Source: Pempheris klunzingeri
Lineage: Eukaryota > Chordata > Actinopteri > Acropomatiformes > Pempheridae
Assembly: GCF_042242105.1 (NCBI RefSeq)
Contig: NC_092035.1
Span: 1,430,083 to 1,494,082 of the forward strand
Reading direction: 5' to 3'
DNA length: 64,000 nucleotides
Numbering within the stretch: position 1 is the stretch's first letter; each line of letters begins with the position of its first letter. The position numbers were made by a program, and so were the translations under genes. Of the stretch, positions 40,389-63,990 are shown piece after piece. The notes under the pieces were generated by a model that was not told the DNA's origin, searched no databases, and saw only the letters and a list, made by a program, of their open reading frames with translations.

Positions 40389-41117
40389 TCACAAGTGTTC
40401 GTGAGACTCAAACGCTGGGTTATGTTTCCCCCCAGAGCTGGTGAAGGTCCCCCGGCTGTCAGGTGATGACCCCTCTCCTCTCAGAGATGACCGTGACCTC
40501 CCTGGTAACCTGTACGTGCAGAAAATAATCCCAGAGACGATCATCAGGAACGTCCCCACCAGACCGACCCCGATGCCGCTCCCCACGTGTTGAGAGTCAG
40601 GAGCCGGGGGCATTTTAAACTCAGGGGGGAACTTGATGGTCTGATTGTTCACCACTGAGCTCATGTTCCACAGGAGAGGTACCAGTGACATCACGGCGGC
40701 AAGCAGGCACAGCGCACCTGTGGTGAAGAACGCCGAACGGATTGGCGAGTTCTTATCCATCCCCATGTAGACGTTCCTCAAGGCATAGACGCCGGCAGCG
40801 TTCCCACAAAGGCCCACAAGCAGAGACAGGAGCGTGAGAACCTGACCGGCCACAATCTCCGGCGGCGTGAAGGCCTCGGTCGGGCTGATGTACCTGCAGT
40901 GCATGACCATAAAGCCAGGGGTCACCACGGCGTGGCTGTTGAAGCAGGCCCTCCACAGGCCCACCCAGGCCACGCCGGAGCTGATGACCTCTCTGTCGGA
41001 CACCTGCCAAACCCTCCACTGGACGAGTCCGAGGGCCACGGCGGTGAGCGTCCAGCCCACGAAGCCCAGCCAGAGGGCGCCGAGCTGGGCGTGGGCGGTG
41101 TGAGCCAGGTAGGTCAT
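40389..41117 (-). CDS. cldn34-like: Claudin-34-like tetraspan protein
   Basis: A single coding exon of 242 residues. The claudin/PMP22 signature is clear: Trp34, then W51-GLW(53-55), Cys58 and Cys74 in the first extracellular loop. Four hydrophobic segments lie at about 11-33, 87-112, 127-150 and 180-202. The start MTYLAHTAHAQLGALWLGFVG and the block ALRNVYMGM after the second segment resemble CLDN34 more than classical claudins. The C-tail is Ser/Gly-rich and ends HEHL, not the PDZ-binding YV of classical claudins. In human, CLDN34 lies beside SHROOM2 at Xp22.2, and here shroom2 is the next gene, which supports the call. The function of claudin-34 is little known; a membrane or junction role is inferred from the family. 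Confidence 0.88.
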   Translation of the reverse strand: MTYLAHTAHAQLGALWLGFVGWTLTAVALGLVQWRVWQVSDREVISSGVAWVGLWRACFNSHAVVTPGFMVMHCRYISPTEAFTPPEIVAGQVLTLLSLLVGLCGNAAGVYALRNVYMGMDKNSPIRSAFFTTGALCLLAAVMSLVPLLWNMSSVVNNQTIKFPPEFKMPPAPDSQHVGSGIGVGLVGTFLMIVSGIIFCTYRLPGRSRSSLRGEGSSPDSRGTFTSSGGKHNPAFESHEHL

Positions 41118-41207
41118 AGCAGAGGAGCCTCCACAGAGCGTCAGGTCACATCAGCATCACACTTTATATCCAGCAAGAGAGCTCTGAGGCTGCAGCTCCC
41201 TCTGAGA
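41118..41207 (-). other. cldn34-like: cldn34-like 5'UTR part of the coding exon
   Basis: A good acceptor (pyrimidine-rich tract ending CTCTCAG) lies 90 bases upstream of the ATG. This suggests that the coding exon begins near 41207 and is joined to an upstream noncoding exon. Confidence 0.4.
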
Positions 41208-45770: not shown

Positions 45771-48700
45771 TCAGAGCGGCGGCCTCTGCTCCAGCGGCAG
45801 ACTGTCCACCAGGCACTTCAGCTGCTCCTCGCCCAGCTTGATCTTGTCCTCCAGTTTACGCTGCTCGATGATGAGGGCCGACTTCATCTTCACAAAGTGC
45901 CGGTAGTCGTCCAGGCTCTCTGCGTCCAGGTGGGCCTCCATGATGCCGGAAACAAGCCGCTCCCGACGGTCCAGGTTCTCCTTCAGCTCCTTGGCATCCT
46001 CGTGCTGCCGCATCAGCAGCTTACGCTTCTCTGTCAGGGTTCTCTGATGAAGGAAGGATATCAGTAATGATTCAGTCATCTATGCATTATCCGACCAGAT
46101 TAACATGCCGTGTTTTTCCCCCCTAAGCTGTTACCTTCTCCTCTGGCGGGGCTTCGTCATCCAAGCTGTTGAGGGCGTTCTCCACCCGGGCGAGCCGCCC
46201 CGACAGCGACAGCAGCAGGCTCACCACCTTGTCCAGGTCGCCCACAAACATGCAGAACTTGTCGAGCTGGTTGGGCTGACACAGGCGCTGCACGGTCGCC
46301 TCTACTTTGCGGCCGAGAGCCTCGTTGTCCTCCACGTCCTCCTGCAGACTGTGCCGCGCCTCCCGCAGCACCTCCAGCTTCCCCGCCAGGCTGGTGATCA
46401 GCTCTTGCTGGAAAGCATGAAGAAGAAAAAAAGGGGTAAAATACACATATACCATTAAAACAAGAGAGATTATGTTCTTACTCCACTCACAGCCTGTGTT
46501 TTACCTTTTTACTGGCGAGGTCGACGTCCAGCTCGTCCTCAGAGTCCTGCTCCTCCAGCTGCTCCTGCATGTCCTTCATCTTGATGAGGAGCTCGGCTTT
46601 GGGAGCAGATGTGTTGTAGTAGGAGGAGCTGGGGACGAGGGAGGCTGCTGCTGATACAGACACGTCCTCCTCCTCCCTCCTGACACACACACACACACAC
46701 ACAGGTAAGTCTCTCACATCTTTAACTGAAACATGCTGTTTTTCTTCATGTTTCACCAATAATCATCATGTGATCATCATTAGGAGACATTAGGTATTAG
46801 GTAGGAGTATTAAAGCAACCAGCATTAGAAATAGTGGAAAGTAGTCCAGCTATTTTAAAATCCATGTGCTTCTGCAACCGGGAGATGAAAATTATTATTA
46901 TTATTATTAGCAACTATAAAGCAGGTCAACGCTCTTGCAGCTGTAATACGATGTTTGTCCACCAGGCGGCTGGACGGGAACAGAAATATCAAACCCTCAG
47001 CTCATTTCTGGGCTCTTAAAACTGAAAACTTTAAAATTAACAACAATTTGTTAATTCAGTTAATTGATATTGAGGTGACAGCATGTTCGGTAAAGTCCTG
47101 TCACAAAATGCAGACAAGAACAGTAAACCAGCTGTTGTGTTTCTGAAGCTGAAAAAGAGACGAGCAGTTCAAACTGAATTACTTTCACCCGCTGCTCCCT
47201 GGAAAGAGTTCGACCTGGCTGTGCTAATTGAATTTCCCACCTGTCCATGCTCCTGGGGGATGAGGTGGGCAGCCTGGAGCCGGCGGAGGCCCTCCTGCGG
47301 TGGTGGCCCCCCTGCAGGATCTGCTCCTCTGTGGGGAAGAGTCCCTCCATCAGGTCCATGGTGGTCATCCTGCCGCTCTGGTCCAGGATGTCCACCAGGG
47401 ACTTGTCTTTACCCATGATGTCCCTGGCCAGCTCCTCTCTCTTAGCGTCCTCCTCCGAGCACCGAGCCCCCGCTGAACTCGGCTCAGGGACCGACTCCTG
47501 GACCCGAGGCGGGTCCTGAGCCGCCTGGCGGGTGTAGGCGCTGAACAGGGACGAGGCAGGGCGCTCCGTGGTGCTCAGGGGGGGGATGTGGGGCGGCAGC
47601 TCGTAGACGCCGCAGGTCTCTGAGCTCTGAGTCAGGTAGGCTCTCCCCTCTCTCTCCGAGCTGCTCTCCGCGTGGACGATCCTCACGGGGACTTTCCTCA
47701 CCGGGCTGCTCACCTCCATCTCAGCCGGCGTCTTCAAATCATTCTCTAACCTGGACAGGAAACAAGCCGACAGTTATTCCTCTGTTAAGATGGAAAAAAT
47801 GTAGAAGAAAGACAGATATAGATGGAGTCAGTTCTTTAATCTCCTCTGATTCCTCTGACATGTTTTAATTTATAACAGAATATTTCAAACCTGTAAGACA
47901 GCCAAACATTTTATAATTCTAGGCCTTGCACATAAGTATTTTGTTTTTTAACCTAAACCACATCCATCACAAGACAGATGGAGACACACATTTTGATAAA
48001 CATCAGAGCCACACAGTCGTCGTTTCTAATTAAAGGATGGATAGTACAGTACAACTGCGACGGGAACCAAAGGTCACAGCAGCCGTGTGGCTTTAACAAA
48101 ATTACAGCCTCCAGTTTGATTTGTCCCAGGCAGCAGGGGAAATCAACTCCAAGCACAATCAAGCTCTGCTCTTCCTCCCTGTGGGCACATTTTACATTCT
48201 GGGCATTTTCAGCAGCTAACAGAACACAGTGACGATAAACATCTTCAGCAATAATCTGTTCTTTCTGCTCTCTTATTGTATTATTTATCTGTCGGACTCT
48301 TCCTTGTTGTTACTTAACGTTGTAAGTCAAAGCCTGGTCTAGTAGAGCACGAGGGGAAGGCTTTACATAACGAGGGGCAGCGAGGAGACCTCAAGCACTC
48401 CGGCTAAGCCGCTTACCTGAGCGGTGAGTCATCCTGCACGAACACGGCCGGCGGCCTGTCGGTCAGTCTCAGCGGTGCAAACTGTGGCGAAGGAGACCGC
48501 GCTCGGTCTGCTGTCCACGGGGTGAACAGAGACGAAGAGGAGGGCGGCCTCGGTTGCTCCTTCTCCTCTCCGTTTTCTGCACCTCCTCTGCTCATGTCTG
48601 CTCTGGACGTCTTAGTGAGGTGAGGGGAGCCGGCCGGGGCGGGGCCGGCGGAGGAGTCCTGGGCAGCAGCATGGTGCTGGGTGTCAGAGCTGGAGCTGGA

Positions 48701-51700: not shown

Positions 51701-54700
51701 ATCCTGCGGCCCTCTGCTTTGGCCTTCCTGGCCTGGAGCTCAGCAGTCTGCACTGCATGTTTGCTCAGTAGGCCAAAGTGTCTGCTGTGCCCGCAGTTCT
51801 CCAGGTTTGGGTTTGCGGCGGAGTGCCGGACCTGTCTGCGGCTGAAGGCGTTTGTGGGCAGATCCTGGAGGCTGCGATAGTAGCTTCCTACACTCTGAGT
51901 CTTGCTGGGAGGAGCTGACCTGGTCTGCAGGTAGAGGGGGCTTTCGTCACTGTATTGCCTCTGGTGGTAAGGTAGCTGTGTGTGCTGAGACTGTCTGACA
52001 TCATTGCTGGACAGGGAGAAGAGTTTGTTGGGATGCAGCTGGTTGTGGTTGTGGTCAGCTGCCATGTTGGGATGGAGAAAGTCTTTGGTGGGCAGAGGGT
52101 TGAGGCTACGCCTGGCCTCTAAAGTTTTCTCCTGGTGAGATCTGAGGCCGTTCTGGTCATTATTTTCTGCCAGTTTTTCACAGGACCTGCCTTTGCTCTT
52201 CGCTGGACCACCAGGCCCTTCAGAGTAAGGAAACACCTTTGTGGCGGCAAAGCTGTCACTGCGCAGCGGAGGAGGTGGGGGAGGAGGAGACTGGGACTTC
52301 TTCTTCTCCGGTATCTGCCACACTGGGCCGATGCCGGATCTCCCTGCGATGGAGACCCTTGAGGCAGGCTGTTCTTCAGCCCGTGACCCCTCCCAGCCTC
52401 CGTTCCCCAGCATTGGCTGTATGTAGCGGGACCGCTCGGCCTGCTGAGGCCCCTCACTCTGAAGACCCTTGAAGAAAATGTTTTCAGTGCTGGTTCCCTT
52501 CCTACCAGATGCGCTGGGGTCGTGAACAGGAACAGGAGGGCTGGAGCTGCTGGAGAAACAGCTGAACCCGGATTCTCTTTTGCCTCCTGGTTCACAGGGC
52601 GGCTCGGAGCTGCTGATGAATTTAGTCGGGGAAAGACGACCTGTCTGGTAGGGATGAGAGGGACGCTCCAGTCTCTCCATGTTGTTCACCGAGTTAAACT
52701 GGCTCGTTATCTGACGCTGGGTGCTCTGGTCCGCTTGAGTGGACGACTCTTTGGGCCTGGGGTTTAACATTAGAAACAAATCAGTGCTTGACTATGCTTT
52801 AAAGTAAAAGTATCACACAGATGAATAAAACATGTTTTCTGCCCTGTTTAACGCTCAGAGAACCTAAAAGTTTCACCTTGCTTCATGTTTTAGCTGCCAG
52901 ACTGGTGCTGCGGTGGCCTCGCTCCCTACGAGCTCCGACTCCTCTTCCGTCAGCTTGGAGGAGTGCCAGGAATTAAGCCGCGAGTCCAGATCATTCTTCC
53001 TGTGAGGCAGAGAGGCAACAAAACACAATCACAAGAGAGGATTTGACATTTCAGCCTTTTTTGCATTTTCCTTTTAAGACGAGCGCAATAGTTTAACACT
53101 GTTTCATGTGTTTTGTCACCACCATCCTTCTCCTCCTGTACAAGAGGAACAGCGTTGTGTTTCTATACAATTTGCATTTCATAAGACTTTAATGTTAAAT
53201 TGCATTACAGGACTTGTATTTGGCTTATTGTTCCGTATGAGCCATCCAAGCTTGGACTGTGAATTGGACTTAAATTGCAGTCTTGTATGGACTGGGACAA
53301 ATAGAATAATTTTCTAAATATATGTGTGCACATTTCAAATGTCCTCTTATAATATTAAGCACACCTTGGTAAGATAAACGGATAACATTACTGTGCTATC
53401 CACTATCCACGTACCCTTGTCTGAAGCGGTTTTTCCTGGACAGCATGTTGACAAAAGAAAAGAATTACATTTGTTCAATACGTACACCATAAATTCACAG
53501 AACAATTCAAGCCGGAGACATGCAAGTGTGACAAAAGTGATTAATAGTACACGAGGAGGACGAACATCACGACACCGAGCTCAACTTTAAAACAGGAACA
53601 CAGTACAGCTACAGAATATTTGGGTTTGGAGAACTGACACCACAATAATACAGAGAGCAGAAAACCACGAAGGAACTCGAGGACCAAAGATCACTTGGGT
53701 TCACCAGAACTACCAGCAAACACAACGGGCTGATGGTACCTCATGGAGCTTCGCAAAATCTTGGTGAGAAAGCTCCTCGCCACATGAACCTCCGTTTCTG
53801 ATGACATTGTGCGTGGCGACACAACATCGACCATTTTAGCCCTGATGGGCGGCCAGTGATGAAGGAAGAGGAGGAAGAGGAGGAGGAGGAGGAGGAGGAT
53901 ATGTCGGTAAAGAGACAGAATAACGTATCAGTTAAAACATGTTTCTTCTTTCTGAAACTTTTCTGGCCAAATTTAATTGAAGTGCAGCTCTTGGGTCTTG
54001 GAGCAGGCTTTCAGCGGACACAGAGGACACTATATATAGTGTAGGGTGGAACCTGTGACCCCTCTCTTATTTTGAAGGGCTTTCACAACAGGAGAGGGAG
54101 ACAGGTCTGTGATCTGTCACAGCCAGATGGCCCAGACGGAGCTTAGCTGCTGAGCTTTCAGAAAAACTAGATGAATGCGACCCACAGCCTTGCACCTTAC
54201 ATTAGGAAGTGATGTTTCACACTGAAAACAAGTTATTGTGACGATTGCATGTTTTGCAACCTTTACAAATACTTATATTCTGTAAAATTTCAAATGCTGA
54301 CACCCAGGGAGATTGTTTTCCCCGGTTCCCAAGTTCAAATGTCAGAACAAAGAGAAACATCGCCGCCAAGTGAGACTTCAGGCGCCCTGACTGAAACTTT
54401 AACCCTGATGGAGACGCTGCATTCTTTCAGTAAAGGAATGCAGGGAGGCCGGACAGCACCCTCGCTTCAAGTGGGACATCTATGTTGGCCATCTCCCAGG
54501 AGTCTGAGAGTCTCCCCGCTGAAGAAAGCGTGACGCCTTCTTTCTGACTTTCTACCAAAACTTCACCTGGATCTGATTTCTTTACAGATGCTGGGCTGTT
54601 GCGTGTAATCCCTCAGGGGACAGCCGGGATATTCTGGTTTGTTTATTCAGAGTGTTACTCTCCTTTTCAATAGTTATTTTATATTTATATGATTTTTTTC

Positions 54701-60700: not shown

Positions 60701-63700
60701 TCTGAAATATTAAATATGGAAATATTTGTCACAAAAACACAAAGTTAAACCAAAAGAAACAGATCCATCCATCTATCTCAGGCCTACACGGTTAATAAGG
60801 ACCCTCACAGCAGAGACAAAGACACTGTTGATGCACCGTCTAAGCCTGGAGATGATTCAGAATCCACTTGTTAAAAAGGGAGTAAAGGGATGTCTTACAG
60901 TTTGGAGAATATTTGTGTCCTACAGGACCCTGACACACACAAACAACAGACTCAAGCCTCCACAGGGTGGCGCTAGATCCACTCAGACCTGCCTAACTGG
61001 TGCAAATGTTGGTCCTACTTCCTTCAGCAGGTAACCTTTTTAAAAGTGAAGGTTTAAATATATGTTTCAGACTGTTGCAGCATCCCTTTTGGTTCCTCCG
61101 TCTGTTTTAAACCGTGAATGAACTGTGTTACTTTTCCAACATCCCCAAACCAACTCAGCGGATTGTCAGACAAACTAGAAGATTAGAAGTTACAACAGAT
61201 TAGTCGGTCATGGATACAAGAAACTCCCATTATCTCTTTGCCAGACAAGCAAACAAACACGCAGAGCAGAATCTGCTGCATTGGAGCCAAACAGCAACAC
61301 AGCTGACTTAAACGGACTCATTAAGACGACGAGCAGCAGGTATGTAGAGCGACTGCTTTCAGCTCCGCTATCTTTATCTATTTTGTGTGTTCGAAATGAC
61401 TGAAAAGTTTAGGACCTGGTCCATTAGATCAGTTCAAAGCCACCAGACTCCACTGACAAAAACAGTGATTTTACCTCACAGCACACAGGTGTTGCTGGTC
61501 CACCACTGCCTTCATCGGTTACTTTGTTTGTGCTCTTGTGGCACTTTGGTGTTTTAAAGAGTTAGTCTGGATCTAAACTACCAAAGTCACATCAACTAGA
61601 CTAGACAGAGAAGATCCCTGCAGAGATATGGACCTGTAAGATCCTTTTTGTTTAACTAGAAACCACCATTATCCCACTGAGTCCAAAGCCACCAGACTCC
61701 ATTGAAAAAAACAGTAATTTTAGAGTTGCTGGACTTGTTGCTCCGACTTTAGTATTTTAACACATCAGTTCTGATCCAAACACAATCTGGTTAAAATAAA
61801 TCCCGTTTAACTTCTAGGAAATTGTCACCTCAGAACCCATGAAACACCTCTTCATGAACATTTTGATCTGCACATGCCGCCATGACCTGACGCCAGCTGA
61901 CAGAGGGGACTCCTTTCTGCCTCATTTCGGAGTCATTATCTGCGCCCTGAAATAACAGTGTGGGCTGGAGCTCGGGCGCCTCCACAATACCCGCTTTTGT
62001 TTCACCGTCAGGGGCAAACAAGCAGCGAGAGGCCCCAGTGTGAGGCTGTCAGACTGGGTCTGCCTCAGCCGAACCTCCTTAATGAAAGAAATTAATGGCT
62101 GGAGAGGAAGCATGATGGGATTTTAGGACACACTGTGCTTATGAGCAACATGCTATGTCTGCTGAGTTTCTCTTTGTCACACAGTCTTCAGATGCATGTC
62201 AGGGAGCCGTGGCTTTGACCTCTGACCTCTTAATCCGAAACCTCAATATGTTTTTGGCCCTGGTGGAAATGTGTCTTTAGCCTGAAGGTCTGCATCAAAT
62301 GTCTCAGAGCTACAATCTTGTTCATCTACTTGTTTTTTTTGATCAGGTACTTCCTGATTTAAATGATAAATGTGGTCATTTTCTGTGCGTCAGGCAACAT
62401 TTAACACTTTCTACATGGGAAGAAAGAAAGAAAAGTGTTTTATTTTGATTTAAAAATCAGAATATCTGCTGCTACGGTACCTCCGGACCACCAGGGTCAA
62501 GGTCTTATGGGAGCTCTTCACCAGACAGATGGCCTCCTGGCGGGAGCCGCTGAGGGGAACGGCGTTCACGCTCACCATTTCATCACCGGCCTGGAGACGG
62601 ACTGCCGCCGCCACGCTGCCCTCCTCCACCTGAACACACACACAGACACACATAGACATCACAATGCTGACAGCAAAGCACAATAAAACTACTGATGTTC
62701 ATAAAGAAACAGGGAAATGATAAACACACGCTCCTCTCCTGTGTCCCTGTGTTCAAAACACAACCTTCAAAACACAACACATCCCCCTTATGAAGCCATA
62801 AAGAGACTCAAACCTAACCGTGGCGTTTTCACACACAGAAAAAGAGGTTGAAGGTCTCTAGACACACCAGGGACGTGGATTTATGTTGAAAAGACATTTA
62901 AAAAGTACAGTTTTGCACAATATGGGACCTTTAACATCTTATCTCCAAAGTAGCAGCACCATTACATATAGAGTCGATGCAAAGACGGGTCTCAGACGTC
63001 CTAAAATCATCACCCATCTTATGTTCTCTTTAGCCAGTAATGGTCAGAGATGCACTTTGTTGCGCTGAAATTAAAAACCAGCAAGTGACGACAGCTCCTG
63101 CGTCTGTTCTCGGCCATCTATTAAAGGTGGATGTTGCAGGTGGGACGCTGTCGCCGGCAACCTGAGCGCTCCGATTAAAAATTAAAACCCGCTCCGGCTG
63201 TAACCCGAGCACGCCGGTGGTGCACTGCTCCACGTCAAAAGCCTCCTGAATTTAAATGCTCTTTCAGATTCCATCATTTTTAATTTGAACGTACGTGCTG
63301 CCGCTCCAGTGGACCGACGTGACTGGAGGCTATAATAAGAGCTCAAAATGTGGCTCCTCAGTGTAACATCTCACACGTGGACGGTGTTTGAAGGGAGACG
63401 GCGCAGTTTGGCTTTCCGGTGATGCAGTTGATGGTCAATATTTCAGACACAGATGAAAGGCTGTGAATTCTGCACCACAAGTCTAATTGATAGGAAACTC
63501 ACAGCTGAATATTACTGCAGGTTTGATGAAGTATCTCATATTTCGGGCCTGGCCAATCAGTAGAGTTAAACTATTATTAATCAGCAATGATTTTTGGACA
63601 CTAATGCCTGATATTCTCTGGTTTTATCTGCACAGGGTTTGATGATTTGATGTTAGTACAACAAAACTACACTACAGTACAACAGGGCTCACTATCATCT

Positions 63701-63990
63701 GACATTTCTACATATTTGTGCTGAAACAACACCTGAGTTTTGGCACCAAAACAGGCCGATGTTGTTACCTTAGTGATGACCAGAGGCTCTCGGTGCTCGC
63801 TGCCTCCCCTCAGGGTGAAGCCCCAGGGCGCTTTGCCCCGGAGGAGTACCTCCACCAGCTCTTCATCCTTCTCGTCGTCCTCCTCCTCGTTCCTCGGCTG
63901 CACCGTGCCCCTCCACGTGTCCACCTCCCTCCACCACTTCATCATTCCCGCCGAAGCTCTCAGGTCGTCTCTGTAGTCCACGGCGTCCAT
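45771..63990 (-). CDS. shroom2: Shroom2, PDZ-containing long form
   Basis: Ten coding exons: 63769-63990, 62481-62629, 52877-52999, 50443-52756, 50259-50314, 48417-49019, 47241-47750, 46505-46679, 46135-46407, 45771-46043. They join to 1565 residues (human SHROOM2 1616). The PDZ domain spans about 45-122, with carboxylate loop APWGFTL and RQEAICLVK. The motif SWHSSKL follows in exon 3. A proline run lies near 320-330. ASD1, the actin-binding region, covers about 678-820 ([34 protein letters not shown]). ASD2, the Rho-kinase-binding coiled coil, covers about 1340-1560 ([53 protein letters not shown]). Shroom proteins recruit Rho kinase to actin at apical junctions and drive constriction. [10 protein letters not shown] and the claudin-34 neighbour favour Shroom2 over Shroom3 or Shroom4. 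The first ATG is 10 bases from the window edge in an open frame, so the true start could lie outside. Confidence 0.94.
46682..46703. repeat. (CA)n next to a shroom2 splice acceptor
   Basis: On the gene strand this is a (GT)n tract ending in TCAG, the acceptor of exon 8 at 46679. The usual pyrimidine tract is replaced by GT repeats. Confidence 0.9.
53415..53435 (-). CDS. shroom2: Possible 21-nt in-frame microexon, or second alternative start exon, of shroom2
   Basis: A 21-base segment lies between a CAG acceptor preceded by a T-rich tract and a strong GTACGT donor. Inserted between exon 2 (or the alternative exon) and exon 3 it adds seven residues (KNRFRQG) in the same phase. The bases just upstream also offer an in-frame ATG (MLS at 53436-53446, A at -3) that would make an 11-residue alternative start. 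I cannot tell which, if either, is used. Confidence 0.3.
53740..53807 (-). CDS. shroom2: Predicted alternative first coding exon of shroom2 (PDZ-less form)
   Basis: An ATG at 53805-53807 opens 22 codons (MSSETEVH at the start, KILRSSM at the end) and then AG before a GTACC donor. The phase is the same as that of PDZ exon 2, so it joins exon 3 as R-KNDLDSR without a frame change. The resulting protein would have about 1464 residues and lack the PDZ domain while keeping ASD1 and ASD2. A TATATATA palindrome lies about 225 bases upstream. PDZ-less Shroom isoforms from internal promoters are known for Shroom3. Here it is a prediction from frame, donor and promoter-like context. Confidence 0.5.
53862..53899. 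repeat. (GGA)n / (GAGGAA) purine tract
   Basis: Imperfect GAG/GAA triplets, pyrimidine-rich on the shroom2 strand. The tract lies between the TATA-like element and the alternative ATG, so it would be within the 5'UTR of the short transcript. Confidence 0.85.
54031..54038 (-). promoter_or_regulatory. TATA-like palindrome upstream of the PDZ-less shroom2 start
   Basis: TATATATA flanked by AC and GTGTAG. A minus-strand start about 30 bases downstream (near 54,005) would give a 5'UTR of roughly 200 bases that includes the pyrimidine-rich TCC repeat at 53862-53899. Confidence 0.35.
55478..55525 (+). repeat. 3' tail of a fish LINE-like element
   Basis: GTGGGACTAATAAAGGAATA then TCTTATCTATC is the typical ending of non-LTR retrotransposon copies in teleosts. 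Only the tail is recognisable. Confidence 0.5.
56184..56235. repeat. (CTC)n microsatellite
   Basis: About 17 uninterrupted CTC triplets in shroom2 intron 2. Confidence 0.98.
56811..57075 (+). repeat. Fish retroelement-derived repeat
   Basis: It opens with AGATTAGATTCAACTGTATT, then GTCATTACACCTGTACAGTA and AAGGCAATGAAATGCAGTTT. This phrase order is shared by a very common teleost element. It is flanked by (GATTA)n- and (TA)n-like sequence. Confidence 0.6.
58329..58373. repeat. (CAG)n followed by (GGC)n
   Basis: About eight CAG triplets at 58329-58353 and five GGC triplets at 58358-58373. It reads as a poly-Ala or Ser frame in places, but no gene is apparent. Confidence 0.9.
59313..59330. 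repeat. (GT)n
   Basis: Short GT run in shroom2 intron 2. Confidence 0.9.
60960..60975 (+). promoter_or_regulatory. CTCF-like motif in shroom2 intron 2
   Basis: CCACAGGGTGGCGCTA agrees with the CTCF consensus at about 13 of 16 positions. It lies inside the long intron between the PDZ exons and exon 3. Confidence 0.35.
61420..61790 (+). repeat. Two tandem direct copies of the same dispersed repeat
   Basis: CAAAGCCACCAGACTCCA occurs at about 61435 and again at about 61685. Each is followed by TTGAAAAA- or TGACAAA-type sequence and then TTTAGTATTTTAA or TTTGGTGTTTTAA. The left copy matches the reverse complement of 1381-1500 closely over more than 100 bases. Confidence 0.65.
62630..63768 (-). 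other. shroom2 intron 1
   Basis: A 1.1-kb phase-0 intron splitting the PDZ domain between ITK and VEEGS. It holds a short (CA)n by the acceptor and nothing else was recognised. Confidence 0.85.

Follow-up and report, generated by a model that had tools for sequence, protein, structure and literature searches.

A probable optional coding exon between the PDZ exons and exon 3 of a fish shroom2 gene

The window, the whole 64,000-nucleotide stretch of Pempheris klunzingeri DNA that was analysed, carries a shroom2 gene on its minus strand. Shroom proteins link actin and Rho-kinase. The PDZ exons (63990–62481) are followed by a large exon that contains ASD1 and by terminal exons that hold most of ASD2 (46407-45771), and the Pfam PDZ, ASD1 and ASD2 models all score above cut-off. 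The three domains were assigned to one gene from their order, their strand and a collinear copy on C6 of the same genome. Boundaries outside the intron under study were placed by eye. The exons of the gene are as follows.

63769..63990, minus strand: first coding exon found, start of the PDZ; ATG at 63990 assigned by eye
62481..62629, minus strand: second PDZ exon, ending in phase 2 with ..RR at AG/GTACCG
52877..52999, minus strand: shroom2 exon 3, with a homologous exon in C6
50443..52756, minus strand: large ASD1-containing shroom2 exon, its 3' end placed by eye
45771..46407, minus strand: final two exons, which hold most of ASD2 (the Rho-kinase binding region)

The last ASD2 exon was compared with the solved Shroom2 structure 5f4y at four loci (C23 left out), and the scores were 128 bits for C6, 111 for the window, 72 for C14 and 69 for C19. 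Domain content (PDZ, ASD1 and ASD2) together with an ASD2 nearest to Shroom2 among the scored loci classes the window gene as a predicted Shroom2 (SHROOM2/APXL). The C6 gene is a second shroom2, collinear with the window over the PDZ, ASD1 and ASD2 exons and the neighbouring gene. A claudin-like gene (Pfam Claudin_2) adjoins shroom2 at 40389-41150 on the minus strand of the window. The neighbour of the C6 copy matches it in translated comparison only, and the presence of this neighbour at both copies supports duplication of a block. Collinearity and divergence are consistent with the teleost genome duplication, which is presumably how and when the two copies arose.

The second PDZ exon and exon 3 are separated by a 9,481-base intron that contains the segment of interest.

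53740..53841, minus strand: proposed optional (cassette) coding exon of 102 nt, starting and ending in phase 2, its outer R codons common to the neighbours
53842..53946, minus strand: 3' splice site region with a pyrimidine (TCC)-rich tract, ending catcag/GG, the exon starting at 53841
53832..53834, minus strand: earliest in-frame ATG in the exon, in the context AAAATGG, which an ATG in C6 shares
53805..53807, minus strand: ATG picked in an earlier note on this DNA, 22 codons from the donor
54031..54038, minus strand: TATATATA, which precedes the exon by 197 nt and has no counterpart in the 600 nt ahead of the C6 exon

The earlier note had read this segment as the first exon of a PDZ-less Shroom2 transcribed from an internal promoter. 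The ATG at 53807, the 22 codons, the AG with its last exonic base at 53740 and the GTACC donor are all present on the minus strand, and TATATATA does lie upstream at 54038-54031. The phase match to exon 3 also holds, and the join of 53740 to the exon 3 start at 52999 reads in frame. The 3' splice site, the in-frame ATG at 53834 and a 21-nt microexon candidate did not figure in that account. The exon appears to be real and conserved, and its join to exon 3 fits, whereas the internal promoter and the PDZ-less start are not favoured given the acceptor in both copies, the PDZ phase and a TATATATA that is unmatched in the 600 nt ahead of the C6 exon. The earlier note put the PDZ-less product at about 1464 residues. 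A splice model gives 1445-1461 codons, but with 14 stops that stem from a wrongly placed exon 4/5 junction.

Because the end of the PDZ exon, the start of exon 3 and both ends of the 102-nt exon are all in phase 2, the exon can be inserted between the PDZ exon and exon 3, and the joined sequence reads in frame. The window acceptor is free of AG back to -105, and the last AG ahead of the C6 acceptor is nearer, at -30. Scored with self-written matrices, the window acceptor falls in the top 8.6% of all AG and the donor in the top 14.4% of all GT, compared to the top 10.6% and 11.1% for the acceptor and donor of the PDZ exon and the top 0.5% and 1.3% for those of the C6 exon. In the window the donor has the weak sequence GTACCA. 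The intron holds 43 open, phase-fitting ATG-to-GT stretches of 15-60 codons, and only the one belonging to the 102-nt exon ends in AG/GT. On its own this is weak evidence, and it is conservation in the paralogue that carries the case. The polypyrimidine tract at 53842-53900 is a (TCC)n repeat; it may differ in length among individuals and could thereby tune exon inclusion.

Conservation was assessed on one paralogue, in which the counterpart exon (C6:7049968-7049867) is exactly 102 nt long and has the same acceptor and donor positions and phase as in the window. Both copies have an acceptor and a donor, a length that is a multiple of three, the phase of their neighbours and an open frame. The encoded segments are 74% identical, and the final 17 residues are the same. 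Identity between window and C6 is 78% in the second PDZ exon, 80% and 62% in the ASD2 exons and 36% in the large exon, so that conservation of the 102-nt exon is similar to that of the PDZ and ASD2 exons and far above that of the large exon. Synonymous changes account for 11 of the 21 nucleotide differences in aligned codons, against 22% expected without selection (p = 0.002), and the last 18 codons hold 4 synonymous differences and 1 nonsynonymous difference. The nonsynonymous rate of the exon is 0.13, and that of the PDZ and ASD blocks is 0.09-0.24. In an ungapped comparison of window and C6, similarity stops at the exon ends, the microexon stretch aside. The same length, splice positions and phase, the identical core and the synonymous excess in C6 indicate that the 102-nt exon is very probably real and coding.

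We consider it likely, from the sequence comparison, that positions 53841-53740 of the minus strand form an optional internal exon of shroom2 behind a retained PDZ. The PDZ is most likely kept because the exon begins at an acceptor and can sit in frame behind the PDZ exon and ahead of exon 3. The two copies differ by a 3-nt indel on the acceptor side of the ATG and by another behind the ATG, which leaves length and PDZ frame the same in both and favours translation that enters the exon from the PDZ.

A PDZ-less Shroom2 could still be made through a separate leader exon, since both copies have an ATG in strong context. An alternative promoter would then drive a non-coding leader exon spliced to the acceptor at 53841, with translation starting at ATG 53834. 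The AAAATGG context is what a start exon would have, and a PDZ-less form is known for Shroom3. However, no convincing match was found between the upstream introns of the two copies (8,639 and 8,710 nt; one hit, E 0.23), although leader exons need not be conserved, and CpG observed/expected upstream of the exon (0.40 and 0.22) is close to the averages for the introns (0.37 and 0.30). The indel ahead of the ATG, which chance alone would leave in the PDZ frame one time in three, also counts against this start, and we regard it as unlikely.

In human SHROOM2 the PDZ is followed directly by the RPHSWH exon, which speaks against the 102-nt exon being a constitutive part of fish shroom2 instead of an optional one. 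The splice sites of the window copy are weak, although those of the PDZ exon are no stronger. The exon is symmetric and in frame and has good splice sites in C6, all of which a constitutive exon would share, but we judge constitutive inclusion to be highly improbable.

The start near 54005 proposed in the earlier note, with the segment as an unspliced first exon of a TATA-driven transcript, draws on the TATATATA at 54038. The motif matches at 5 window positions, which are one run of four overlapping matches and 54031..54038, and the 600 nt preceding the C6 exon contain neither TATATATA nor TATAWA. An acceptor common to both copies sits between TATATATA and the ATG, and the ungapped similarity does not extend past the exon ends. 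The motif is probably not a promoter, and such a start is barely credible. That the segment is a chance open frame and no exon is close to impossible: the intron does contain 255 exon-like frames of 60-150 nt, but the paralogue has the same exon with the same length, an identical 17-residue core and a synonymous excess.

Under the favoured reading of an optional exon behind the PDZ, inclusion would lengthen the stretch from the PDZ domain to exon 3 by 34 residues with the frame unchanged, and skipping would join the PDZ exon directly to exon 3. Cassette splicing with tissue-dependent inclusion is predicted. The exon places a basic segment directly behind the last PDZ strand. The role of the exon is most likely that of a helix, formed by the conserved basic 17-residue stretch beside the PDZ domain, which would alter partner binding or touch the membrane; the conserved segment shows no significant amphipathic (hydrophobic) moment (p 0.07 and 0.10).

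A second candidate exon lies 304 nt downstream of the 102-nt exon and before exon 3.

53415..53435, minus strand: candidate 21-nt microexon encoding KNRFRQG, phase-neutral, TGC at -10, gtccag/GAAAAACCGCTTCAGACAAGG/gtacgt
C6:7049503-7049486: 18-nt counterpart encoding KNRFKG, TGC at -10, ttcag/AAAGAATCGCTTTAAAGG/gtatgt

The PDZ exon, the 102-nt exon, the microexon and exon 3 are mutually phase-compatible. The microexon donors of the window and of C6 each rank within the top 1.9% of GT, and the acceptors are in the top 7.6% in the window and only the top 21% in C6. The two short introns hold 23 and 14 phase-fitting candidates, and the single matching pair, judged by eye, is the microexon. The local intron alignment that ends at the microexon is modest, its score being reached by 22 of 500 shuffles. 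The peptide match is not unique: comparing 292 x 251 candidate pairs across the whole intron gave two further pairs, with scores of 22 and 23. The case for the microexon is thus modest and is carried by position, TGC and donor.

According to PMC8797185 and PMC12626420, Srrm3/4 microexons carry UGC close to the acceptor, together with a tract rich in pyrimidines. The candidate is very short and in frame and shows both features. A 2026 paper (PMC13281805) reports that a zebrafish shroom2a microexon, DreEX0007899, is skipped in srrm3 mutants, and terms it zebrafish-specific. The candidate may be this microexon; if it is, the microexon is not specific to zebrafish. The linker between PDZ and exon 3 is probably a two-exon splicing switch, because the phase-neutral microexon candidate is laid out like Srrm3/4-dependent neural microexons. 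More tentatively, and as a possibility we would not rate as the probable outcome, fish Shroom2 may combine the 102-nt exon and its basic segment with an Srrm3/4-controlled microexon in a switch by which neurons or sensory cells would retarget the Rho-kinase/actin scaffold with the PDZ retained, kept in both copies since duplication.

The same genome contains further Shroom loci at C14:16963865-16967813, C19:7930686-7973478 and C23:3843668-3880821, and by their sequence C19 looks shroom3-like and C23 shroom4-like. The genome search gave no PDZ match at the C14 locus, as expected for a shroom1-like gene, and the genome-wide searches gave no match to the cassette there. No convincing cassette was found in 20,000 bases of the C23 gene, which include the entire PDZ-to-exon-3 intron, or in 20,000 bases of the C19 gene, which cover all but about 2 kb of that intron. 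The best C23 hit, QLKDVITQKAPSKND (E 0.002), was rejected, as the similarity is not continued and there is no matching donor. A genome-wide search with the exon returned six matches, four of which belong to the shroom2 pair. The other two, L005 (C5) and L006 (C1), are chance-like, with E values of 0.5 and 1.5 and an inner stop in each. A search for stray fish DNA in viral and genome contigs gave 55 and 32 pattern matches and no relative. The exon peptide matched no paper, and the 102-nt exon is undescribed in the literature listings on Shroom2 isoforms, PDZ, splicing and microexons, on shroom2a and on Shroom3 isoforms; the available parts of PMC6419433 and PMC6347642 contain nothing on it.

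A segment bordering the PDZ, if optional, would offer a testable means for one gene to act differently in epithelial and neural cells, and the reported Srrm3-dependent shroom2a microexon may gain a protein context. For annotation, an ATG followed by a donor does not make a first exon where an acceptor sits just upstream.

The short form of Shroom3 drops the PDZ. It resembles the present case in that a Shroom family gene makes alternative N-terminal isoforms at or near the PDZ. The difference is that the window exon begins at an acceptor and most likely leaves the PDZ in place. The passages of PMC10259099 that name a short and a long isoform of Shroom3 do not say how the two differ. The Drosophila Shroom isoforms A and B likewise differ in domains, but isoform B is described in PMC7875558 as lacking the actin-binding and putative EVH1 sites, which is not a linker insert. 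The 21/18-nt candidate resembles the neural microexons governed by Srrm3/Srrm4 (eMIC) in being phase-neutral and in having UGC at -10 and an upstream pyrimidine-rich tract in both copies; the 102-nt exon differs from them in not being a microexon. DreEX0007899 is called zebrafish-specific in PMC13281805, whereas both shroom2 genes of the fish analysed here have the candidate.
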